This document shows positions 10,812-53,109 of a DNA stretch of 64,000 nucleotides, piece after piece. The notes under the pieces were generated by a model. That model worked only from the letters and a program-made list of their open reading frames with translations, was not told the DNA's origin and ran no database searches. This DNA is from Zanthoxylum bungeanum (Eukaryota; Streptophyta; Magnoliopsida; Sapindales; Rutaceae). Position 1 is the stretch's first letter; each line of letters begins with the position of its first letter. The translations under genes and the position numbers were made by a program. The DNA lies in the NCBI GenBank assembly GCA_019454045.1, contig SKCR01049637.1, forward strand, positions 124,001 to 188,000, read 5' to 3'.

Positions 10812-11417
10812 TCACTTTTTATGCTTTCTGCTACGCTTAGGTCCCCATCCTTCGAGTTTGGCAACAGGGCACCCACATCTCGCCCGAAACAACAAAACGG
10901 CCCGCCCATTAGGCGGCGCCATCTTACGCAATTCGGCACGAAGGCACTCATAATCAGGGTTTCCTTCGCTTCCTCCCTTCCAAGGCAATTTATCAATTAC
11001 CACATCCGATCTCACGCACACATCGGTCTGAAGCTGCAAATCAAATTCCATAGCCTTCTTAAGGCCCTTACAATTAGGGTTGTGGCATTTTCTGGCGCGT
11101 GGGCCGCAGCAAAACTCGAGGGCGAGTAGTACGGTGACGAAGAGGAGGATGAATCCGAGAATGTAGGGCAAGTGAGGGGACGAGGCGGATAATGAGAAGG
11201 CGTGGTGGTGGTGGTGGGAGAAGAGGAGGGAGAGGGAAGTGAAGATGTACGAGAAGTACGACGAGATTAAGAAGGTGCCGGAGAAGAGCACGAGGATTAG
11301 GATTAAAAGGTCGAGGGTGGCGGATGGGGAGTGCTTGCAGTGGAGAGGGGTCGATGATGACGTGGACGACGGCGCGGCGGAGGGCATGGTGGTTTCCGGG
11401 AGGAAGTGGTGGTGCAT
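10812..11417 (-). CDS. Two-membrane-span protein of the plant 'ribosomal protein L34e superfamily' (At5g19025-like)
   Basis: Intact 201-codon frame. The function of this family is not established; the 'L34e' label is an annotation name and this is not a ribosomal protein by sequence. Visible features: a Ser/Pro-rich N terminus; a hydrophobic span at residues 35-60 starting at SATLDLLIL; a His run (68-72); a second span (83-102); then a conserved, probably cytosolic Cys-containing domain with CHNPNCKGL (111-119), EFDLQLQT, LPWKGGSEGNPDYECLRAEL (144-163), KMAPPNGRAVLLFRARCGC (165-183), and a basic end GWGPKRSRKHKK. The Cys set 103, 104, 111, 116, 158, 181, 183 could bind metal or form bridges. 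The start may be Met1 or Met11 (MPSAAPSS), the N terminus being the least conserved part. The gene is GC-richer than its surroundings, as expected of a host gene. The plus-strand frames at 10821-11129 and 11239-11520 are antisense shadows. Confidence 0.9.
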   Translation of the reverse strand: MHHHFLPETTMPSAAPSSTSSSTPLHCKHSPSATLDLLILILVLFSGTFLISSYFSYIFTSLSLLFSHHHHHAFSLSASSPHLPYILGFILLFVTVLLALEFCCGPRARKCHNPNCKGLKKAMEFDLQLQTDVCVRSDVVIDKLPWKGGSEGNPDYECLRAELRKMAPPNGRAVLLFRARCGCPVAKLEGWGPKRSRKHKK

Positions 11418-23999: not shown

Positions 24000-25480
24000 T
24001 GATCGGCGTAAACACACACGTATAACGCAAGGGTACGTATCGTTCAAGTAGTATAAAAAGTATCGATCCCACGAGGACTTAATACCTAAGCTATTAATTT
24101 TATGAGGTCAAATGATTACTAGTATCTAATAGGTTGATTGATTGATTTGAAATGGTGACGATTCTAAATTTAAAAGCAAGTAAATAAAACTGTTCGAAAG
24201 TAGGTTTTAAGAAAATTCAATATTAAAAACTATATAGGGTTGTGATTTATTCCAATATTATTTAAAGATGAAGTGATTATCCTATAGCTGGGTAATATAT
24301 TGATTTATTAACCTGCAACACTAAATTATGTAAAAGCCTCTTCCGATGGTCAATTACAAATACCTAGTATAATCCAATTGAACCATATGTCTATGTCAAC
24401 CAAATTACCTAGATTCATTAAGATTAAGTTCCAATTTGGCTACCCCCGCCCGACAGGTATATTCCTATCCTGTAAGGAAATCTATTAAAGGGTTATCTAT
24501 CCTCAAGGAAGATCGTGGGCTATTGAATCTAAGGTCTTAAACTTAAAATCCCTATGTCTAGTTCATTTTAAGTTTACCTAGTCAATTTTATTAGTGGCCA
24601 GTTAATACAAAGCATTAAGATTAAGACTCAATAAATAAATCTTTATATTACCCAAACTATAATCTAACCCCTTATAAACCGGTGATATTAAAAGTCATCA
24701 CAACCCTAGATAATTAATTTAGTTACAACACATAACTAGGGCTAGTAAAATAAAAGACATAAAGTAAAAATGCCAAAAGTAAAATGCGGTAAAGTAGAAA
24801 TTGAAAAGTAAAATAAAATAAAATGAAATGCTAAGGTAAAAGGAATTAACTTCTACTATTTACTATTTTAGATATCTCCTATTAAATAATATATAAACTT
24901 GTGATAATATTACCAACCAGCCATATAGGCGGTAACCTGATTAAGTCAAATTAAGTCCAACCAGCCATTAAGACGGTAATATTTGTCCATAATCCAGCAA
25001 TAAAAGCGGAACCAAAATAAACCAGCCATAAAGGCAGAACCAAAATAAAATTACCAACCAACCAATCTGGCGGTATCCTTGATTAGTCAGGTTTAAACCA
25101 AATTAAAATGAATTACCAACCGACCAATCTGGCGGTATCCTTGATTAGTCAGGTTTAAACCAGATTAAAATGAATTACCAACCGACCAATATGGCGGTAT
25201 CCTTTTTAAGTCAAATTTTAAATAGTGAATATATTATTTTTAAGGGAGATTAATCTGAATAGTAATAGTAAAAGAATTACCTTTCACCTTAGCAGGGGGA
25301 AGTTACCTCCTCATGGTAAATAGTAAAAACTGTAAAAAGTAAAGAAAGTAAAACACTATTATTACACAAAGTAATTAAAATTAATTACAAAACTTAAATT
25401 AAAAGAAACTAGAGAGAGAAACTCCCTATTTACATCAAAGAAATGAGAGAGAATGGTACAACTGAAACTGAAACGTCGAG

Positions 25481-25492
25481 CTGAATTTATAG
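25481..25492 (-). promoter_or_regulatory. LTR TATA box (CTATAAATTCAG), minus strand
   Basis: CTATAAATTCAG on the minus strand, downstream of the ACGTG-rich block in transcription direction. Identical to the TATA segment of the other Athila LTRs. Confidence 0.65.
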
Positions 25493-25553
25493 GCATCAGT
25501 GGGGTCTGGGCGTCGCGACTCTGGAACAGTTAGGCGTGGCATGCTCTGGTGAT

Positions 25554-25896
25554 GACACGTGGCAATTCGGATAAGAAGATAAAGCAACACATGGCAAGGC
25601 GGCTGAGAGCTCAATTATTATGCTGACGTGGCATGACGTGGCAGTGACGTGGCGACACGTGGCGAAAGGGAGTGTCGACACCGTATGATTACGACACGTG
25701 GCACACGGTGATTGGTTGATGATGACGTGGCGATGATGTGGCACTTTGACTCGGTCAACTGGTGATGTGGATGATGACGTGGCGGTGATGTGGAGTGACA
25801 CGTGGCACACGTGGCAATGGTGATTGTTGGCACCGTAGGATGATGACGCGTGGCACGATGCACGTTAGCAAATTAGCTGTGATGGTGACACGTGGC
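25554..25896 (-). promoter_or_regulatory. Cluster of GACACGTGGC (G-box/ABRE-type) sites
   Basis: Perfect GACACGTGGC at 25554, 25654, 25693, 25797 and 25887, with many GACGTGGC and CACGTGGC relatives between. The motif is the reverse complement of GCCACGTGTC, the site repeated in the other Athila LTRs. Such sites bind plant bZIP/bHLH regulators; actual binding here is inference. Confidence 0.75.
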
Positions 25897-26179
25897 ACGA
25901 CGCACGTTAGCAAAGTCAAACTTTTCATATTCTGATCTGTTGACATGGCGCACATTAGCATGACCCGGTGCACGTTAGGCGTCGCGACGCGCCCAAATTA
26001 CCAAAATGCCACTTTTTCCAATTTTCACTGTTTTGCTCCAAATCACCTCCAGAATGTCCTGAAACTTTATTTATCTACAAAATAACACAAAAAAAATCAA
26101 AATATTCACAAAACTCAAGAAACTATACAAAATATTAGGTTAAATGAGTGGGAAATAGTGATAGATTTACCACTCATCA

Positions 26180-27600
26180 CACCCCAAAACCTAACATTTT
26201 TCTAGTCCTCGAGCAAAACACATAATAAATTTAACTAAGCCACTTTTGTAGGGATCACAGCTGCATTTAGCATATGCAACAAGCCTTTAAACCCATAGGT
26301 GTCCCTAGTGGACGAGTTGTAGTCTCGTGAGGGTTTACAGCAATGATACCCACAAACATTTTACAAAAGTTAAAAGGTAGTGAAACTAATGCACACAAAA
26401 GCAAAAAGACAAGCGATAAGAGAATAAAGAAGTTAGTGACTAATCAGGTGAAATTTCTACTCCAAGTTACTAGTTGTTTTCTTTCTTTCTAATTTACTGA
26501 ATAAGTAAATTCTCCGATTATATTTACCATTCTTCATATACACAGCTAACAAAATATTAAACAACTCATTTATGCCCACAACAGTCACAAGTATAGTTGA
26601 TAAGAGAGTAATATTTTTGTTCTAAAGTTTTATCAGAATTCACACCTTTATGCAGCAATGGAATAATTTTTCTCATTTTTCTGATTTTTTTTTTGATTTT
26701 TTTCTTTTTTTTATATACAATACCTTCCGTCTATGTAACGAGTGTTGGGTCGGTGGCTCCCAAACCAGTTGGCTTTAGGGCACCAGATGTTAAGACACCC
26801 CTACAGACTTAATTACTCAGACTTCAGATATATATATTTTTGCAGCATCTTTGATCCATGTAGCAAGCTTTGGGCCAGTGACTCCCAAACCAGTTGGTTT
26901 TAGGGCACTATGTGTTAAAACACCCTTACAAACTTAATAACTCGGATCTCAGATTTTTTTTTTACTCCATTGCTTTTTTTAAGATGCTTCCTCCAATTAA
27001 ACTAGAGCACTGAATATTACAAACTTTTCAATTACAGCTCATGTCCGTATATTTCCATGTATGTTGATAATACCTGTCAACTGAGCATATGAAGATCCAT
27101 TTTAGTTAGTTTTATGGAGAATTCACAAATTAAATAATTCAAAAGGAAATAAACAAAAATTAACTTGTTTCGAAATAAGTTTGAAATACGTCTCAGGAGT
27201 GAAAATTCCTTACTCAGCTAACTCTTACCAATTTCACCTTTTTAGTCAAAATAAAAACACAAAAACACAAAATATTTTTGTAATTTAAGAAAAATTTTCA
27301 ATTTTTTTTTTGTATTTTTCGAAAAATTTTGGACTAAAAATAAAAACAACACACAAACTAAAAACAAGGTACTAATCAACTAATTCCCTCCCCCAAACCT
27401 AAATGAGACATTGTCCCCAATGTCTTAAACAGTAGAAGAAGAGTTTAAAAGATAATACCTGGTTAGCTGAAATTCTACAAGAAATTAAAGGTTAAGATCC
27501 AGATTAACACGACGCCTCTGTGCGCCTTGCGCTACTTGCCTAATTGCAAACTTTGACTTTATCTCATTGAGAATAGTCATTAACTCTCCCAGAGTTATAT
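26180..27600 (-). mobile_element. 3' internal region of the minus-strand Athila element
   Basis: A polypurine tract (GGTTTTGGGGTG on the minus strand) abuts the LTR at 26180. The next about 1.3 kb is the reverse complement of 48060-49377: the same TTTGGGGGAGGRAATTAGTTG, the same two CCAACTGGTTTGGGAG segments, and the same ACAATGTCTC. The 5' half of the element is missing. Confidence 0.85.
27485..27600 (-). pseudogene. ORF tail of the minus-strand Athila element ending in NLDLNL
   Basis: An open stretch of about 36 codons on the minus strand, closed by TAA at 27485-27487, ends QRRRVNLDLNL. Its last 11 codons and 3' flank match the end of the LOG frame at 48025-48057 (KRRQINLDFNL), but sequence upstream (ELMTILNEIKSKF...) is not LOG. 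The function of the upstream part is not recognised. LDLNL fits the LxLxL pattern of EAR repression motifs, possibly by chance. Confidence 0.55.
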
Positions 27601-43000: not shown

Positions 43001-43553
43001 ATAACGGAGTCTCCTACTGTTTCTCAGGCCCTGCACATTGTTACACAAGTGAGTCCCACAATCGGTGTCAAGCACCCAAGTAGAAGGTTCAGAGTTTTGA
43101 GAATATAGTTCAATCATATACAACATACCTGAAGCATTGGGCATTTTGGCCTCTTGGGCTTCCCTAGCTTCATTGGTTTTCAAGGATCTGCAGTCTTTCT
43201 TCCAATGACCTTTCTTTCCATAAAAGAAACATTTCCTATTTCCCTTTTTTTCTCCACCTTACCATTGGGCTTTAGGTGATCTGGAGCCTTGGCCTTGCCC
43301 TTATTTTTCTTTGGGCCTCGTAGCTTCAGGTCCGTACCCGTAAGCATGACGGAGGTTTTAAGCTTCGGTTTCAAGTCATTCTCTGCTTGCTTTATCAGAT
43401 TGTGCAATTCTGTTAAAGTAGCTTCTTTATCTAACATATGAAACTGCATAATAAAGTTAGAGAATTCTTTTGGTAAGGACTGAAGAATTAGATCGTGACC
43501 TATCTCATGATCCATGATGAACTCGAGGTTGGCCAATTTTTCAATGTGGCCAT
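40037..43553 (-). pseudogene. Copia C gag (C-terminal part), protease, integrase, reverse transcriptase, RNase H
   Basis: From right to left on the minus strand: gag (43548-43180, EIGHDLILQSLPKEFSNFI); a zinc knuckle whose second Cys is Tyr (CFFYGKKGHWKKDC, about 43220); protease with DTDCGTHLCN in place of D-T/S-G (about 43075); GAG-pre-integrase; integrase (42473-41760) with DDHSRYGYV, SDRGGEYLS and NGVSERRNQ holding the D,D,E triad; reverse transcriptase (41595-40700) with WQMDVKTAFLNG and a YVDD near 41020 in a shifted frame; RNase H (40399-40037) with STTEAEYIAASEAAKEVVW and YCDNTGAIAQ. Several frameshifts and stops make it non-functional. Confidence 0.92.
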
Positions 43554-43812
43554 TGATTAGTGGTATTTATATCACTATTTCCCACTCATCTAACCTAATA
43601 TTTTGTATAGTTACCCGAGTTTTGTGAACGTTTTAATGTCTTTTGTGTTATTTTGCAGATAAATAAAGTTGGGAAAGCATTGGAAGCAAGTTGGGGCCAA
43701 AATAGAGAAAAAATGACAAAAGGGCAATTTTGTAATTAGTAAGCGCCGCGACGCCAAGACCCTACGCGTCGCGACGCCTAACGTGCGCCGACCATGCTAA
43801 CATGCGCCGAGG

Positions 43813-44178
43813 GACATGTGTCAGAATCTGAGAAATTGGACTTGCTAACGTGCGCCGATCTTGCTAACGTGCGTCGTGCCACGTGTCATCATCATAGAAG
43901 ATCAGCTAAAATCTGCCGGCTGCCATGTGTCGAAATCTCATTGGACCAAAGCAAGCGCGTGCCACGTGTCAATCTCTCATTGGACCGAATATTGGATAAA
44001 TCACATGTTGCCACGTGTCGACCTCTCATTTGACCGATCTTTACCGCGTGCCACGTGTCAACTTCCCATTTGACCAAAAATCCAGCCATTCACAGTGCGC
44101 CACGTGTCGTCGTCTGATTGCGCCGCTCTGCCACGTGACAAGTATCATCTTTTGATTGTGCCGACAGAACCCACGTGG
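43813..44178 (+). promoter_or_regulatory. Array of GCCACGTGTC (G-box/ABRE-type) sites with TTGACC-type boxes
   Basis: Perfect GCCACGTGTC at 43878, 43961, 44010, 44050 and 44099; variants at 43813 (GACATGTGTC), 43922 (GCCATGTGTC), 44130 (GCCACGTGAC) and 44171 (CCACGTGG). Between them TCTCATTGGACC/TCTCATTTGACC recurs, giving rough 40-50 bp units, some with TTGACC W-box cores. The array ends about 80 bp before the TATA box, where upstream promoter elements would sit. Regulator binding is inferred from motif identity. Confidence 0.82.
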
Positions 44179-44259
44179 TCAACCTGTGTTGACCTTAAAC
44201 GCGTGCCAGCGTCGCTACGCTGGGACCTTGGCATCGCGACACTGGTTCCAGAAAATGGC

Positions 44260-44265
44260 TATAAA
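44260..44265 (+). promoter_or_regulatory. LTR TATA box
   Basis: TATAAA within CTATAAATTCAGGCC (44259-44273), downstream of the GCCACGTGTC array and upstream of a CTTCTTCACTTCATTTGG segment likely to hold the transcription start. Conserved at 50084-50098 in the 3' LTR. Confidence 0.7.
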
Positions 44266-44528
44266 TTCAGGCCTTCTTCACTTCATTTGGTGTGCTTTCC
44301 TTGGGATTTTTTCCCTGATTTCATAGGAGCATCTAGTTTTGTAATAATAAAATTATGTATTTTTATTTTTAGTTTTTATTACAGCTTTTTATTTATTTAC
44401 TTTATGTTTTGTAGTTAAATTTCCGCTGGGGTAAAATGTGAAACCTTTAATATAATTATCTAGGTAAATCTCACTTAATTATAATTTATAAATTATAATT
44501 TAACCAGATTAATTAATGTCAGACTTTA

Positions 44529-44660
44529 TTACCGCCTATATGGTCGGGTTAATTATAAATTACTTTACCGCCTATATGGCTGGTCTTTATGTGACAGATA
44601 ATTACCGCCTATATGGCTGGTGTAATTGGACTAAATGGATTACCGCCTATATGGCTGGTT
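44529..44660 (+). repeat. Four ACCGCCTATATGG repeats in the LTR
   Basis: TTACCGCCTATATGGYYGG occurs near 44529, 44567, 44604 and 44640, spaced 36-38 bp. The 3' LTR (50355-50480) and, in reverse, the minus-strand Athila LTR (24910-25195) have the same repeat in different numbers and states. CCTATATGG has only five A/T bases between CC and GG, so it is not a standard CArG box. Confidence 0.85.
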
Positions 44661-45515
44661 TTAAATGTTTAACATTATTAATTCCTGAGAAAGCAGAATG
44701 TAAAATAATTTATATTTTATAATAAGTGAGATTTCTAGATAAGAAATATTAAATGTGGATCCTCTAACCCCAGCATTTTATTTTATTATAGGGAAGTGAT
44801 GAAACACAATATCCACACTTAATAATTGATTTTCTTTTTATGGGTAATTCTTTAGATTGTTTATTGAGTCTTAAGCTTAATGCTTCCTGTTAACTGGCCA
44901 TTAATAAGATTGATTGGTAAACTTAAAATGAACTAGATATAGGGATTTTAAGTTTCAGCCTTAGATTCAATAGCCCACGATCTTCCTTGAGGATAGATAA
45001 CTCTTTAATAGATTTCCTTACAGGATAGACATATACCTGTCGGGCGGGGGTAGCCATAATTGGAACTTGGGCTTAATGAATCCAGGAAATTTGGTTGACA
45101 TAGACATATGGTTTAATTGGGTTATACTGGGTATTTATGTCTGACCATCTACATAGGCTTTTGCATATTTTTGTGTTCCAGGTTAGCAATCTGATTTATT
45201 ACACATAAATAAGAGAATCAATTCATCTTTATAATAATATTGTGTGGAGTCATGACCCTAGATCCTTGAGTATTTTCTTTTATTTTCCTTAGTATTTTAT
45301 TTTGAGTCTGTTTTTATTTTATTTTGCAAAACCACATTCAACCAACCAAAAGCAATCAATTCCATTCTCCCTATAATTAGATACTTGTAAATAAATAGTA
45401 TCAATAATTAATAACAACAGTAGGAATTAAGTCCTCGTGGGATTGATATTTTTTATACTACTTGAACCATACGTGCGCTTGCGTTATACGTGTGTGTTTA
45501 CGCCTGTCAAGTTTT

Positions 45516-45533
45516 TGGCGCCGTTGCCGGGGA
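45516..45533 (+). other. Athila-type primer binding site
   Basis: TGGCGCCGTTGCCGGGGA, the site typical of Athila elements, six bases after the LTR end. Confidence 0.93.
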
Positions 45534-45645
45534 CTTATTTTTCTTGAGTTATTAATTTTGAAGTTACCAATTTACTTGTATCTAATTTTCTTTTATTTTT
45601 ATCTGTAATTTTTATTTCTTTCTTTTGTTTTCAGGTGGTTGAAAA

Positions 45646-46881
45646 ATGGAACTTTATTGGGAGATTGAGAGATCACGAGCTTTACTAGAAGATACACCCC
45701 ACATCTGGGAGCAACAGTCCGGTTTTCTGAGGCCTGTTGTACAGCCTAACGACTATCACTGGATGCTAGAACCAAGCAATACTACATTTGCTCATCAGAA
45801 CGAAATGGGGAGATGTGTAATATGTGATGGTAACCACCCGAGCGATCAATGCATATACTTTTCACAGTGGCAGAATTATTGGAATCATTCAAGGTACGAA
45901 GAGACATCACATTTTCCATCTTATCCACCATCCACCTACGACGTTCATCAACAACCAGAACCATAAGAGGAAGATCAGATACTTCACATGCTCAAAGATT
46001 GGTTCAAGGAACGGGAAGCTCAAATTGATGCACAATTTCAGAGTCAAGCAAAATCTATTCAGAGAATGACTGAGCAGATCAGACAATTAACAGAAAACCA
46101 GAGCTACATACCTCAAGGACCATTTTAAGGTGAAGCCTTCGAGTACCAATCATTTCACAATGACACTTCAATAGAGAAAGAGGCTGAGCAGTATCAACAA
46201 CCAGAGGTATCAGTTCAGGAGCCCGAACCGGAAAAGTCTTGATTTGATTTTTATTATTCTGACTCTGACGAGGATGAAGCTGATCTATTTGTACCAACTG
46301 CACCAACAACGAAGGATCAAACTTTCAATCCTCAAAATGAAGATATTGGAGCATGCTTTACCATGATGTTTGATGAAGATCTACCTGAACCATCCATTCC
46401 AGTCATATCAGAGGATGAAGACCTAAAATCTGACACATCTTTTCATCCTCAGGTTGACAATTTTGAAGCATGTATTTCACATATGACAGATGAAGAGCTG
46501 AATGCAGAAATTTTCAAATACATCTTTGAAGAAAAGGTGGAGCAAGAAGCAGAGCAAATGGAGGAGCAATTGTCTGAACTTATTAAAGATCCAAAGCATT
46601 CAGGCGAAACATCACTGTTTTGGGGAGTACAAATCAAAGATATCACCCAGAAGCTTGACAGAATGGAACTTCCATTCCAAGTCAAGCACCATACAAGACC
46701 TCCCGATTTTATTTCTTTCTTTTCAGGAACCACTATAGCAATAAAGATTAAAAAGGTGGCACGAGCACTGAATGAGACAAAAAATTTTCTGCTACTTTAC
46801 CGTTGGAAGAGACCCTTCAAAAGCAACGCTCGTGGGATTGTCTTTAATCGGACATCCAAAACGACATTGAAACCTCCTTAA
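45646..46881 (+). pseudogene. Athila-type gag remnant
   Basis: One frame from ATG 45646 to TAA 46881, broken by stops at 45964, 46126 and 46240. It holds CVICDGNHPSDQC (about residues 62-74), a CX2CX3HX4C knuckle like that of Athila gag, then a Gln/Glu-rich coiled-coil-like stretch (REAQIDAQFQSQAKSIQRM) and an acidic region (DSDEDEADLF, SEDEDLKSD). The gag N-terminal capsid-like part is missing. The segment ending MELPFQVKHHTRPP is not recognised. Soon after the frame comes TAGAGAGGCAACCCA (46931-46945), a landmark I associate with the Athila pol/env junction. Confidence 0.72.
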
Positions 46882-47351
46882 CAGATGGATTTCAGTCACG
46901 TCTGGCAGAAGACGAAAAATTTAACGCTAGTAGAGAGGCAACCCATGTAATTTGTTGTAATTTTTGTTTTCATATTTTGTGTATACATGTTGTAGAATTT
47001 TTAATTTTGTGTGTTATTTTTGTAGGGAAAAGCACAAACGGAGCATTTTAAGACAGAAGGAATGGTTTTTGGCAATCACAAAGAGGAAAGCTAATTCATT
47101 AGAGATGGCTGAGTAAGGAATGAAATCTTGAGACGCATCCTAATGGATTTATATACCAAACGAGTGGCGTATTGCATACACAATTCCGTTGCCTTAATTA
47201 TTGCTTTGATTCGCTTTTCTGTTGTAATTATCTTTATTTTCGTAGACAGGATCCAGACTTTTTGACATTTCACGATTTCTTTTGTTTTGTTTAGATAAAA
47301 AACGTCCTATGGAAGATACTAATGCTATTTTTACTCACCCTTTTTCATTTA

Positions 47352-47366
47352 CTATAAATTCAGCCC
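47352..47366 (+). promoter_or_regulatory. TATA segment before the LOG frame, near-copy of the LTR TATA segment
   Basis: CTATAAATTCAGCCC here against CTATAAATTCAGGCC in the LTR (44259-44273, 50084-50098). TATAAA lies 63 bp before the LOG ATG, compatible with an internal promoter and a short leader. Could be chance in AT-rich DNA, but 14 of 15 bases agree. Confidence 0.5.
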
Positions 47367-47415
47367 GTCATTGCACTTTTGAAGGCATCCAGATTTAAGA
47401 AAGAAATATATAAAA

Positions 47416-48057
47416 ATGGAAGCCACTTCAAGAAGACGAGTTGAAAACATATGTGTGTTTTGCGGTAGTAGTGTTGGTGTTAAGCCACAATACGTAGAGG
47501 CAGCACATGAATTGGGTCGAGTCTTAGCTGCAAGGAATATGCACTTAGTATATGGTAGAGGCAATCTTGGACTAATGGGGATCGTTTCAAAGGCTGTACA
47601 GGAAGGAGGCAGTCACGTTTTGGGAATCATCCCAAAACCCTTGGCAGATGCAAATCTTATTGAACCATCAAACGGAGAAGAACTGATCGTGCCAGGTATG
47701 TCTGAGCGACTAATGGAAATGATTAACCGTGCTGATGCTTTTATTGCTTTGCCAGGTGGCTTGGGCATATTGGAGGAAATGTTTTGGGCGAACCTGAACA
47801 TACACTAGAAACCGCTTGGACTGTACAACGTTGAAGGATTTTATGATTTTCTTTGTGTGTTTCTTGATGATGCTCGGGGAAATGGGTTCGTGTCAAAACC
47901 TATGAAAGAACTCCCCTTCACTGCCAGAACTGCTCCAGATCTAATAGATCAACTTTTAGCCTATGAACCACAAGTTGACCCTATCCTTTCAAAGATAAAT
48001 TGGTCTGAGGACGATCGTGGTAAGAGGCGTCAGATTAATCTAGATTTTAACCTTTAA
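47416..48057 (+). pseudogene. LOG-like: Captured cytokinin riboside 5'-monophosphate phosphoribohydrolase (LONELY GUY family)
   Basis: LOG enzymes release active cytokinin base from its riboside monophosphate in the cytosol. A single frame of 213 codons, close to the usual LOG length of about 215, reads through with one TAG at codon 131 (47806-47808; CAG would give Gln before KPLGLYNVEGFY). Landmarks: ICVFCGSS (12-19), LVYGRGNLGLMG (44-55; family YGGGS-GLMG), VLGIIPKPL (68-76), the conserved Arg of SERLMEM (98), and ADAFIALPGGLGILEE (106-121), matching PGGxGTxEE except Thr to Ile. Next to it, four residues expected before WANLNIH are missing as an in-frame gap. There are no introns, whereas plant LOG genes have several, so a spliced transcript was probably the source. 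The end KRRQINLDFNL is shared with another Athila copy and is probably element-derived. Likely inactive now. Confidence 0.9.
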
Positions 48058-49364
48058 TTTCCTGTAGAATTTCAGCTAACCAGGTATTATCTTCTAAACT
48101 ATTCTTCTACTGTTTAAGACATTATGGACAATGTCTCATTTAGGTTTGGGGGAGGAAATTAGTTGATTAGTATCTTGTTTTTAGTTGTGTGTTGTTTTTA
48201 TTTTTAGTCCAAAATTTTTCGAAAAAAATAAAATAAAATTGAAAAATTTTCAATAAGTACAAAAATATTTTGCGTTTTTGTATTTTTATTTTGACTAAAA
48301 AGGTGAAATTGGTAAGAGATAGCTGAGTAAGGAGTTCCCACTCCTGAGACGTTTCTCAAACCTGTTTCGGAACAAGTTAATTTTTGTTTATTTCCTTTTG
48401 AATTATTTAATTTGTAAATTCTCCATAAAACGGATTAAAATGGATCTTCATATGCTCAGTTGACAGGTATTATCAACATGCATAGTAACATACGGACATG
48501 AGTTAAAATTAAAAAGTTTGTAATATTCAGTGCTCTAGTTTAATTGGAGGAAGCATCTCAAAAATCAATGGAGTAAAAAAAAATCTGAGATCCGAGTTAT
48601 TAAGTCTGTAAGGGTGTTTTAATACTTAGTGCCCTAGAACCAACTGGTTTGGGAGTCACTGGCCCAAAGCTCGCTACATGGATCAAAGATGCTGCAAAAA
48701 AAATATATATATCTGAAGTCTGAGTAATTAAGTCCGTAGGGGTGTCTTAACACCTGGTGCCCTAATGCCAACTGGTTTGGGAGCCACCGGCCCAAAGCTC
48801 GTTACATAGATGGAAGATATTGTATATAAATAAAAAATAGAGAAAAATCAAAGAAAAAATCAGAAAAATCAGAAAAATGATTCCATTGCTACAAAAAGGT
48901 GTGAATTCTGATAAAACTTTAGGACAAAAATATTACTCTCTTATCAACTGCACTTATGACTGTTGTGGGCAAAAATGAGTTGTTTAATATTTTGTTGGCT
49001 GTGTATATGGAGAATAGTAATTATAATCGGAGAATTTACTTATTCGGTAATTTAGAAAGAAACAAAACAGCTAGTAACTTGGAGTAGAAGTTTCACCTGA
49101 TTAGTCACTAACTTCTTTATTCTCTTTTGCTTGTCTTTTTGCTTTTGTGTGCATTAGTTTTACTTTCTTTTTACTTTTGTAAAATATTTGTGGGTAACAT
49201 TACTGTAAACCCTCACGAGACTACAACTCGTCCACTAGGGACACCTAGGGGTTTAAAGGCTTGTTGCATATGCTAAATGCAACCGTGATCCCTACGAAAG
49301 TGGCTTAGTTAATTTTATTTTTGTTATTTTATTTTATGTTTTGCTCGAGGACTAGCAAAATGTA
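48058..49364 (+). mobile_element. 3' non-coding region of the LOG-carrying element
   Basis: Homologous in reverse to 26193-27484 of the minus-strand Athila. It contains two related 100-bp units with CCAACTGGTTTGGGAG (near 48640 and 48767). No gene seen. Confidence 0.8.
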
Positions 49365-49377
49365 AGGTTTGGGGGTG
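49365..49377 (+). other. Polypurine tract of the Athila-type element
   Basis: AGGTTTGGGGGTG directly before the LTR start TGATGAGTGG. Confidence 0.9.
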
Positions 49378-51331
49378 TGATGAGTGGTATTTATATCACT
49401 ATTTCACACTCATCTAACCTAATATTTTGTATAGTTTCCCGGTTTTTGTGAACGTTTTGATGTCTTTTGTGTTATTTTGCAGATAAATAAAGTTGGGAAA
49501 GCATTGGAAGCAATTTGGGGAAAAAATAGAGAAAAAATGACAAAAGGGCAATTTTGTAATTAGTCAGCGTCGTGATGCCAAGACCCTACGCGTCGCGACG
49601 CCTAACATGCGCAGGCCATGCTAACGTGTGCCGAGGGACACGTGTCAGAATCTGAGAAATTGGACTTGCTAACGTGCACCGATCTTGCTAACATGCGCCG
49701 TGCCACGTGTCATCATCATAGAAGATCAGCTAAAATGCACCGGCTGCCACGTGTCGAAATCTCATTGGACCAAAGCAAGCGCGTGCCACGTGTCAATCTC
49801 TCATTGGACCGAATATTGGACAAATCACATGTTGCCACGTGTCGACCTCTCATTTGACTGATCTTTACCGCGTGCCACGTGTCAACTTCTCATTTGACCA
49901 AAAATCCAGCCATTCACCATGCGCCACGTGTCATCGTCTGATTGCGCCGCTCTGCCGCATGACAAGTGTCATCTCATGATTGTGCCGATAGAACCCGCTT
50001 GGTCAACCCGTGTTGACCGTAAATGCGTGCCAGCGTCGCTACACTGGGACCTTTAGCGTCGCGACGCTGGTTCCAGAAAATGCCTATAAATTCAGGCCTT
50101 CTTCACTTCATTTGGTGTGCTTTCCTTGGGATTTTTTCCCTGATTTCACAGGAAGCATCTAGTTTTGTAATAATAAAATTATGTATTTTTATTTTTAGTT
50201 TTTATTACAGCTTTTTATTTATTTACTTTATGTTTTGTAGTTAAATTTCGCTGGGGTAAAAGGTGAAACCTTTAATATAATTATCTAGGTAAATCTCACT
50301 TAATTATAATTTATAAATTATAATTTAACCGGATTAATTAATGTCAGACTTTATTACCGCCTATATGGTTGGGTTAAATATAAATTACTTTACCGCCTAT
50401 ATGGCTGGTCTTTATGTGACAGATAATTACCGCCTATATGGCTGGAGTAATTCGACTAAATGGATTACCGCCTATATGGATGGTTTTAAATGTTTAACAT
50501 TATTAATTCCTGAGAAAGCAGATATAAAATAATTTATATTTTATAATAAGTGAGATTCCTAGATAAGAAATATTAAATGTGGATCCTCTAACCCCATCAT
50601 TTTATTTTATTCTAGGGAAGTGATGACACACAATATCCACACTTAATAATTGATTTTCTTTTTATGGGTAATTCTTTAGATTGTTTATTGAGTCTTAAGC
50701 TTAATGCTTCCTGTTAACTGGCCATTAATAAGATTGATTTGGTAAACTTAAAATGAACTAGATATAGGGATTTTAAGTTTCAGCCTTAGATTCAATAGCC
50801 CACGATCTTCCTTGAGGATAGATAACCCTTTAATAGATTTCCTTATAGGATAGACATATACCTGTCAGGCGGGGGTAACCATAATTGGAACTTGGTCTTA
50901 ATGAATCCACGTAATTTGGTTGACATAGATATATGGTTCAATTGGGTTATACTGGGTATTTGCGTCTGACCATCGACATAGGCTTTTGCATATTTTCATG
51001 TTCCAGGTTAGCAATCTGATTTATTACACATAAATAAGACAATCAATTCATCTTTATAATAATATTGTGTGGAGTCACGACCCTAGATCCTTGAGTTTTT
51101 CTTTTATTTTCCTTAGTATTTTCTTTTGAGTCTCTTTTATTTTATTTTGCAAAACCACATTCAACCAACCAAAAGCAATCAATTCCCTTCTCCCTATAAT
51201 TAGATACTTGTATATAAATAGTATCAATAATTAATAATAACAGTAGGAATTAAGTCCTCATAGGATCTATATTTTTATACTACTTGAACGATACGTGCGC
51301 TTGCATTATACGTGTGTGTTTACGCTGGTCA
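49378..51331 (+). mobile_element. 3' LTR of the LOG-carrying Athila-type element
   Basis: TGATGAGTGG to GCTGGTCA, 1954 bp, colinear with the 5' LTR. It retains six perfect GCCACGTGTC sites (49702, 49746, 49785, 49834, 49874, 49923) plus GACACGTGTC at 49637, and the TATA segment at 50084-50098. Confidence 0.93.
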
Positions 51332-51741
51332 CCAATCATTTTAAGCACATGTCCACTAACAGATCATTCCTTATACCTTGTTTGGAATAAGGCACATGAC
51401 GCTTGGAATCTCACGGTATGAACGGAAGTTGCATACAACTCCTTCAAGTGAAAGATGATGGTTTGAGCATTCATATCTTCGTGAGCTTTCTGAATTTTGT
51501 CCGACATAGAGCCAAGCATTATGCAAACTGCTTGCTCATCATCATCGACATGTTTCTTCCAAGCATCAAATGTATCTTGGTCAGCATCTTCTGCGGGTTC
51601 AGGGGGAAATGGTCTTTCAAGAACATAGAAAATCTTTTCTTGTCGTAAGACAATTTTAAGGTTTCTAAACCAGTCATTGTAGTTGTCCCCTTTGAGCTTA
51701 TGCTCATCAAGGAAGGAACAAAGTGATACTCTGTTTGCCAT
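51332..51741 (-). pseudogene. Copia C gag, N-terminal part
   Basis: Starts at 51741 with MANRVSLCSFLDEHKL, then YNDWFRNLKIVLRQEKIFYV and the gag signature MLGSMSDKIQKAHEDM, FQASCALFQTRYKE, to the insertion point at 51331. The remainder of gag lies left of the Athila element (43548 downward). There is a stop at about 51362, shortly before the break. Confidence 0.9.
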
Positions 51742-53109
51742 TTGAATGTTTGTGAAATATTTTAACCCACATGTTAAGAGAAAATGTTAAAATTAGGAAT
51801 ATGTTTTCATTAATGTTTCATAATAACATGGGCTTTTAATATTATGAATTTGCTCCCACTCAATTGTTTTAAAATTTTAAGCAAATCGCATCAACCCCAA
51901 TATGATGGATTTCTTGTGGGCAAGGATCCCATTATCATCATTTCATAACTTCGACTAGGGTCGGTCGTTATAAAATACGATAATTAGGTAGGTTCCCAAC
52001 CAATTTATGATATAAATCACAATTCCTTGATCATTGGGTTGGGCAATCAAACATGCCATAACTTATGTTAGTCCTTGTGGACACCCAATCTTTGCCACTA
52101 AGTTATACGACCACGCCTAAGGGTCGCTGCGTCTTATGACTCAGAAAAGTCAAACCATTGTTAATAGTACGATTTAGGGACAAATTGGTATTCGTCAGTC
52201 TGGTAAAGCCTAGTCATGCCAATACGGTTTAAGCCCTTTGGGTCTATACTTTACAATGGGTGGCAAATTTTAGGCTTAAATTATTATTGAGGATTTTAGC
52301 AAGTTTAAGTGAATAACTGTCAAATGGATTCCTCCATTGAAAATTCCCCAGAGGGAGGGTGGAGCGAACTCTCTTAAATACCCTTACCTCTTAGGCTCTT
52401 ATTGCCTTGGTGACAAGAATAAACAATAGATCCTCCAAATTAGTCCAACACTTAAATATGCTTTAAGGTAAGCTTTGAGTAAATGATTATCTAGATATCT
52501 TCACAGCTTTTCCTTTTGGCTATAAAAAGGTAGTGAGTGAAGGAAGACACCAATTATTATCTAACTCTAGTAATACCTTTGGTTAAATAAATTTAGTTTG
52601 GAAAGTTTTTTTTAACGCCTTGGTCCCACCCCACTTGTATCTTTTATAATGTCTTTTATTATAAACAAGTGATTTATATCTATTAGCCTTAAAGGTAATA
52701 AATCTTTATGTTCATCACGGAATATTACTACTAGCTAAGGGATAAGCAATACACTCTCTATTTCCTTAGAAAGTCTCTAGATGCTTGCACCAAAAAATAA
52801 TCATGCCAATTCTAATCATACATAGAATCATCAAGCATATTAGTTTTTTTAATGTTGGAATTATTTTAGGCATTAAATAACTTTGATTAATATTAAATTA
52901 TGATACTGTATTTTATTTTATTCAAATAAATTTAATATCACGTTTTTCTGCAGACGCGTGAACTTTAAATGTATTTTCATAATTCAAATCTTAACCAAAT
53001 CATGCAAAACTTGTACCTAAAATTAGGTCAGGGTGTTAGCTTTCCAACGAGCTTTTAAACACCCAATTGCGAGTTCAAATGAGAGAGAACTAATCAAAAT
53101 AAAAACGGC
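51742..53109 (-). mobile_element. Leader of Copia C
   Basis: About 1.37 kb of non-coding DNA between PBS and gag ATG, unusually long. It contains the block 52310-52675 shared with the Tat leader at 22711-23071. Confidence 0.75.
52310..52675 (-). repeat. Leader block shared with the Tat element (22711-23071)
   Basis: On the minus strand it runs ATCACTTGTTTATAATAAAA ... GAGTTCGCTCCACCCTCCCT ... ACAGTTA, the same order and sense relative to PBS and gag as in the Tat element. Confidence 0.88.

Follow-up and report, generated by a model that had tools for sequence, protein, structure and literature searches.

The window analyzed here is a stretch of 64,000 nucleotides from Zanthoxylum bungeanum (contig SKCR01049637.1, positions 124,001 to 188,000 of the forward strand), and all coordinates refer to it. 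It contains a retrotransposon with long terminal repeats (LTRs), E1, which carries an intronless LONELY GUY (LOG) frame between a gag-like open reading frame (ORF1) and its 3' LTR. The window also contains the truncated remnant of a second element, E2, which keeps the C-terminus of a LOG frame. The features of E1 and its insertion site are listed below.

43554-51331, plus strand: E1, whole element
43554..45509, plus strand: 5' LTR, 95.0% identity with the 3' LTR
45516..45532, plus strand: primer-binding site TGGCGCCGTTGCCGGGG, 17 bases, exact match, 6 bases past the 5' LTR
45646..46881, plus strand: gag-like ORF1, 412 codons including the stop, CX2CX3HX4C knuckle
47416..48057, plus strand: LOG frame, intronless, with three lesions (TAG, 4-codon gap, PGGLGI)
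48058..49377, plus strand: 3' untranslated stretch, two 128-base repeats, polypurine tract at its end
49378..51331, plus strand: 3' LTR, 95.0% identity with the 5' LTR
43550..43553, plus strand: 5' copy of the target-site duplication, CCAT, one base shorter than the 3' copy
51332..51336, plus strand: 3' copy of the target-site duplication, CCAAT, from the flank letters and the empty-site reading
51364..51786, minus strand: Copia gag, part before E1, from the reading frame and the joined reading across the empty site
43180..43549, minus strand: Copia gag, part after E1, from the same two readings

Anatomy of E1 and its insertion into a Copia gag

E1 has the features that define an LTR retrotransposon: two LTRs, a primer-binding site, a polypurine tract (ggtttgggggtg) immediately upstream of the 3' LTR, and a target-site duplication that is unequal by one base. 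The 95.0% identity of the LTRs extends over 1959 blastn columns, and a global alignment gives 1861 matches, 90 mismatches and 9 gap columns (K2P 0.048). A pol domain is absent from all 12 listed E1 ORFs of at least 80 amino acids scanned with Pfam. The same scan of the E1 ORFs gave no gag match for ORF1, and its gag-like label rests on the knuckle, which we take to be a gag pattern. ORF1 contains three in-frame stops (45964, 46126 and 46240) and is separated from the LOG frame by about 0.5 kb. The two 128-base repeats in the 3' stretch are in tandem (48583-48838) and 78% alike, and both seem to be present in E2 as well (cross matches 26730-26954). Both LTRs also contain 85-base units, spaced 89 bases (43956-44129 and 49780-49953), with the sequence GCCACGTGTC, a G-box-like CACGTG.

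The empty site was rebuilt from the short flanks in four trials, in which the repeated target was shortened by 0, 3, 4 or 5 bases. Deletion of 4 bases results in a minus-strand Copia gag frame (...VLKMIGHIEKLANLEFIMDHEIGHDLILQSLPKEF...) that contains a single stop, located upstream of the junction. Deletion of 0, 3 or 5 target bases results in no flank frame with one stop or fewer. Since the flanks without the element read as a continuous Copia gag, LOG is located inside E1, and E1 is shown to have inserted into the Copia gag as one unit. The empty site rules out that LOG is host DNA between two elements. A sequence-only reading of this DNA had described an intronless LOG frame between a gag remnant and the 3' LTR, an element with both LTRs, a primer site and a polypurine tract without pol, and a LOG inside the element. 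These observations are confirmed by the ORF, LTR and Pfam evidence and by the rebuilt site.

That reading also called the element Athila-type. The primer site is a 17-base match at 45516 to a sequence that we take to be the complement of the 3' end of tRNA-Asp. A primer site of this type is also used outside Athila; non-chromoviruses use several primer tRNAs, tRNA-Asp among these, and the feature is not exclusive to Athila (PMC6317226). The Athila domain of ORF-1 (PF03078) has no match in the 12 E1 ORFs scanned, but it is not obligatory for Athila and is present in 16% of Athila elements (PMC6317226). The lineage is assigned by a phylogeny of reverse transcriptase, RNase H and integrase (PMC6317226). 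This criterion needs pol, which was not found in E1, and Athila is a tentative label for it. The LOG of E1 occupies the slot where Athila elements may have env (PMC2410132). Pol-less Athila elements of Arabidopsis are like E1 in that they consist of LTRs and two ORFs without pol, but there the ORFs are Gag and Env, whereas the second ORF of E1 is LOG (PMC2410132).

The LOG frame, its relatives and the second element

The LOG frame has 214 codons including the final stop. Its first part matches PF03641 (E 1e-18) and PF18306 (E 2.2e-14), and its second part matches PF03641 under the cut-off of that domain (E 4.4e-4). The best listed match is P0001 (217 aa), with 88% identity over 212 columns (E 1.7e-66), which is far above chance. 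The predicted fold of P0001 (pLDDT 84.7) has AtLOG3 as its top match (TM 0.95 by target). The PF03641 domain and the fold, modelled on this relative, place the frame in the LOG protein family. The family motif PGGxGTxxE is changed to PGGLGI (PGGLGILEE). There is an in-frame TAG at 47806-47808 and a 4-codon gap at 47784/47785 relative to P0001. All three lesions had been pointed out in the sequence-only reading and were verified; the LOG copy in E1 is dead.

The relatives of this LOG are the best 120 of 2193 proteins (P0001-P0120), known as protein sequences. At least 200 aa are present in 71 of the 120 and PGGxGTxxE in 66 of these 71. At an identity of at least 65% there are 38 listed relatives; 15 of them have at least 200 aa, with the motif in 15/15 and the catalytic Arg in 11/15. 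Relatives with open frames therefore exist among those listed, and the suggestion that intact sister copies are possible holds to the extent that these proteins are element-borne, as we infer. The closest listed relatives are mostly on short contigs. Among the listed rows that have a name are some from Populus, Xanthoceras, Diplodiscus, Dipteronia and Reevesia. One clade (100/100) holds 32 listed rows of at least 200 aa, including P0036, P0039 and P0045-P0047, its named members being Populus; it may reflect a high copy number in poplar.

Of the 71 listed relatives that reach 200 aa, 53 have a C-terminus of the pattern LxLxL, which resembles an EAR repression motif. With F permitted in the middle, this tail requires five changes on the LOG tree. 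The C-terminus in E1 (48025-48054) contains NLDFNL.

ORF1 has 23 relatives. P0136 (299 aa) and P0122 (293 aa) are free of stops across the parts of ORF1 that are broken in E1, and P0139 spans from an LTR end into ORF1. A search of viral contigs with P0001, P0036, P0136 and an LTR-end pattern gave no matches. Genome contigs searched with P0036 gave 22 loci without any plant DNA; their record titles were all bacterial, and they were left aside.

The second element has the following features.

24000-27519, minus strand: E2, truncated, 3' part
27485..27517, minus strand: LOG C-terminus, RRRVNLDLNL and stop, as translated
26180..27519, minus strand: 3' internal part, 90.9% identity with E1 48023-49377 over 1361 columns
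24000..26179, minus strand: 3' LTR of a different type, with partial matches of 70-79% to the E1 LTR

The tblastn rows of P0002 and P0009 against the LOG tail of E2 are weak (27571-27488, E 0.5-0.6), and it is the uninterrupted DNA match with E1 over 1361 columns that supports the homology of the tail. In bins of 150 bases the identity of E1 and E2 is 91.3-95.2% as far as the LTR border; inside the LTR it is 47.6-93.3%, and one border bin is at 78.0%. The same LOG tail and 3' stretch therefore adjoin two LTR types, with a step in identity at the LTR border.

Since the LOG C-terminus is also retained in the remnant E2, LOG is not a private accident of E1, and a private capture in E1 alone is rejected. 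The simplest account is that LOG predates the divergence or recombination of E1 and E2; the ancestor would have had LOG, and the cassette would have swapped its LTR by recombination. Recombination between distant Athila families has been described, which is a further likeness of the Arabidopsis pol-less elements to E1 (PMC2410132). The earlier proposal that a LOG mRNA was captured and that the element spread with it thus stands in part: LOG is a carried gene and E2 has the same C-terminus, but the capture is not confined to E1.

Elsewhere in the window, a host gene similar to At5g19025 (10812-11387) has a best match of 82%, and its best named matches are in Mangifera at 80%, Pistacia at 79% and Dipteronia at 78%. 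Judged by these matches, the plant probably belongs to the Sapindales.

The base pocket of the carried LOG

The LOG tree has 75 rows, and is unrooted and drawn at its midpoint. The LOG of E1 is sister to P0001 (100/95) within an 18-row clade (100/99), and both belong to a clade of 64 rows (99/91). Arabidopsis LOG3 and LOG8 fall outside, with a bacterial row (97/92).

The cytokinin pocket was defined by Met96, His97, Lys100, Glu125 and Trp129 of CgLOG. The LOG of E1 does not have all five. Met and Trp are retained, His is replaced by Ser and Lys by Leu, and the Glu125 position is inside the gap (Ile in P0001). Across the 64-row clade, the Lys100 position is L, I or M in 64/64 rows. In 63/64 rows, T, I, H, Q or R stands at the Glu125 position, the gap being that of E1. 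The catalytic residues are mostly kept in the clade, with Arg in 59/64 rows and Glu122 in 64/64. The full set is intact in 8/8 rows that branch outside the clade and in 3/3 outgroups. When the columns of the pocket Lys and Glu are left out of the tree, their losses require one change each.

Canonical LOGs (Arabidopsis LOG3, 2a33, and LOG8, 1ydh) share the fold, PGGxGTxxE, and the catalytic Arg and Glu with most of the listed relatives. They differ in that the clade has Lys100 and Glu125 replaced and that 53 of the 71 listed relatives have the LxLxL-type tail, and the LOG in the window is intronless and element-borne. In CgLOG, Lys100 touches adenine and, together with Glu125, the presumed prenyl site (PMC4979012). 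Replacing the residues that contact AMP by alanine is said to have removed nearly all activity, S19A excepted, and Lys100 is named as one of these residues (PMC4979012). The base pocket of the carried LOG is thus unlike that of cytokinin LOGs, and on these residues a plain cytokinin activator is improbable. Since the clade of the carried LOG has replaced the pocket Lys and Glu, the idea that the family moves a hormone-activation gene is doubtful. Taken as a whole, the interpretation in the sequence-only reading is partly supported.

Explanations for a LOG in a retrotransposon

LOG-carrying Gypsy elements are a kind already known from Citrus and poplar. The YgdH (LOG) domain is present in Gypsy consensuses of Citrus sinensis and C. 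clementina, and also in Populus trichocarpa when the n5 filter is off; the source cites Steinbauerova 2011 in agreement on this domain (PMC9289625). These consensuses are like E1 in having a LOG-family domain in a plant Gypsy element, and Citrus likewise belongs to the Sapindales. They are unlike E1 in that they were located via reverse transcriptase and hence have pol, which was not found in E1 (PMC9289625). This comparison is by their description, which in the section on these consensuses gives no position, activity or pocket analysis. An orchid Gypsy with an m6A demethylase (2-ODD) domain is similar in that a Gypsy lineage has kept a host enzyme domain, but the enzyme is another one and is termed functional in the title of the paper (PMC9289625). 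In the partly covered, open-licence literature no description was found of a pol-less two-ORF anatomy with LOG, of LTR exchange around LOG or of the pocket change.

The joint explanation that we consider best, and likely, is that E1 represents, as a dead member, a pol-less LTR retrotransposon family similar to Athila, with a resident LOG as second ORF in the env slot, encoding an enzyme with an altered pocket. In an ancestor, a spliced LOG mRNA would have been acquired through template switching during reverse transcription. The family would be mobilized by pol supplied in trans, and the cassette of LOG and 3' untranslated region (UTR) may have moved between LTR types through recombination. 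RNA driven by the LTRs of intact copies would then give a LOG-fold protein that may still cleave the N-glycosidic bond of a nucleoside monophosphate. The difference between its base pocket and that of cytokinin LOGs suggests that this protein would probably not be a plain cytokinin activator.

Several findings weigh against this explanation. E2 retains just 10 LOG codons plus the stop, and the element-borne status of P0001-P0120 is inferred. Support for the 64-row pocket-change clade is 94/82 once the trait columns are removed. Wheat LOGs that share key residues vary in activity (PMC11593424); therefore, pocket residues do not decide the substrate. Among the 38 listed relatives that reach 65% identity, those under 200 aa number 23, a count in which contig ends and broken frames are undistinguished. 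Gln replaces the catalytic Arg in 4 of the 15 long close relatives, and likewise in P0032. These five (P0010-P0013 and P0032) hint at LOG copies without catalysis. P0001 and the LOG of E1 have G48R in common. Because of the short relatives, the Gln for Arg and the G48R in P0001, purifying selection on catalysis is without support.

The same observations favor a captured LOG mRNA that was copied passively with no role for the element, the open frames of its relatives being a result of recent amplification. The copy in E1 is broken, 23/38 close listed relatives are short, and conserved sites are hit: 5/18 near rows have Gln for Arg, and the two closest have G48R. However, 15/38 of those relatives retain at least 200 aa with the motif in 15/15, the LOG tail adjoins two LTR types, and LOG domains are recurrent in elements of Citrus and poplar (PMC9289625). 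Passive copying is an alternative that we hold to be less likely than not. It is unlikely that intact copies, through RNA driven by their LTRs, produce active cytokinin and thereby favor dividing cells and hence the spread of the element. The predicted LOG fold of P0001 and the catalytic Arg and Glu of the clade are compatible with this, but the Lys and Glu positions are replaced across the whole clade, and the CgLOG mutants cited above reportedly lose nearly all activity. A host LOG retropseudogene enclosed by chance between unrelated LTRs is very improbable, since the empty site and the target-site duplication indicate a single insertion, the junction of LOG and 3' UTR is repeated in E2, and no point in its support was found.

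Beyond the altered-pocket family, one may speculate that pol-less Gypsy elements in rosid trees are the main home of this LOG lineage, that its pocket changed after it left the host, and that it serves the element by hydrolysing another nucleoside monophosphate or through a non-cytokinin role. We regard this wider proposal as doubtful.

It is reported to be rare for retrotransposons to keep host enzyme domains (PMC9289625). E1 is such a case, and one with a link to hormone metabolism. Through the pocket change, the vague idea that elements spread a hormone gene becomes one that can be assayed with a clear answer.

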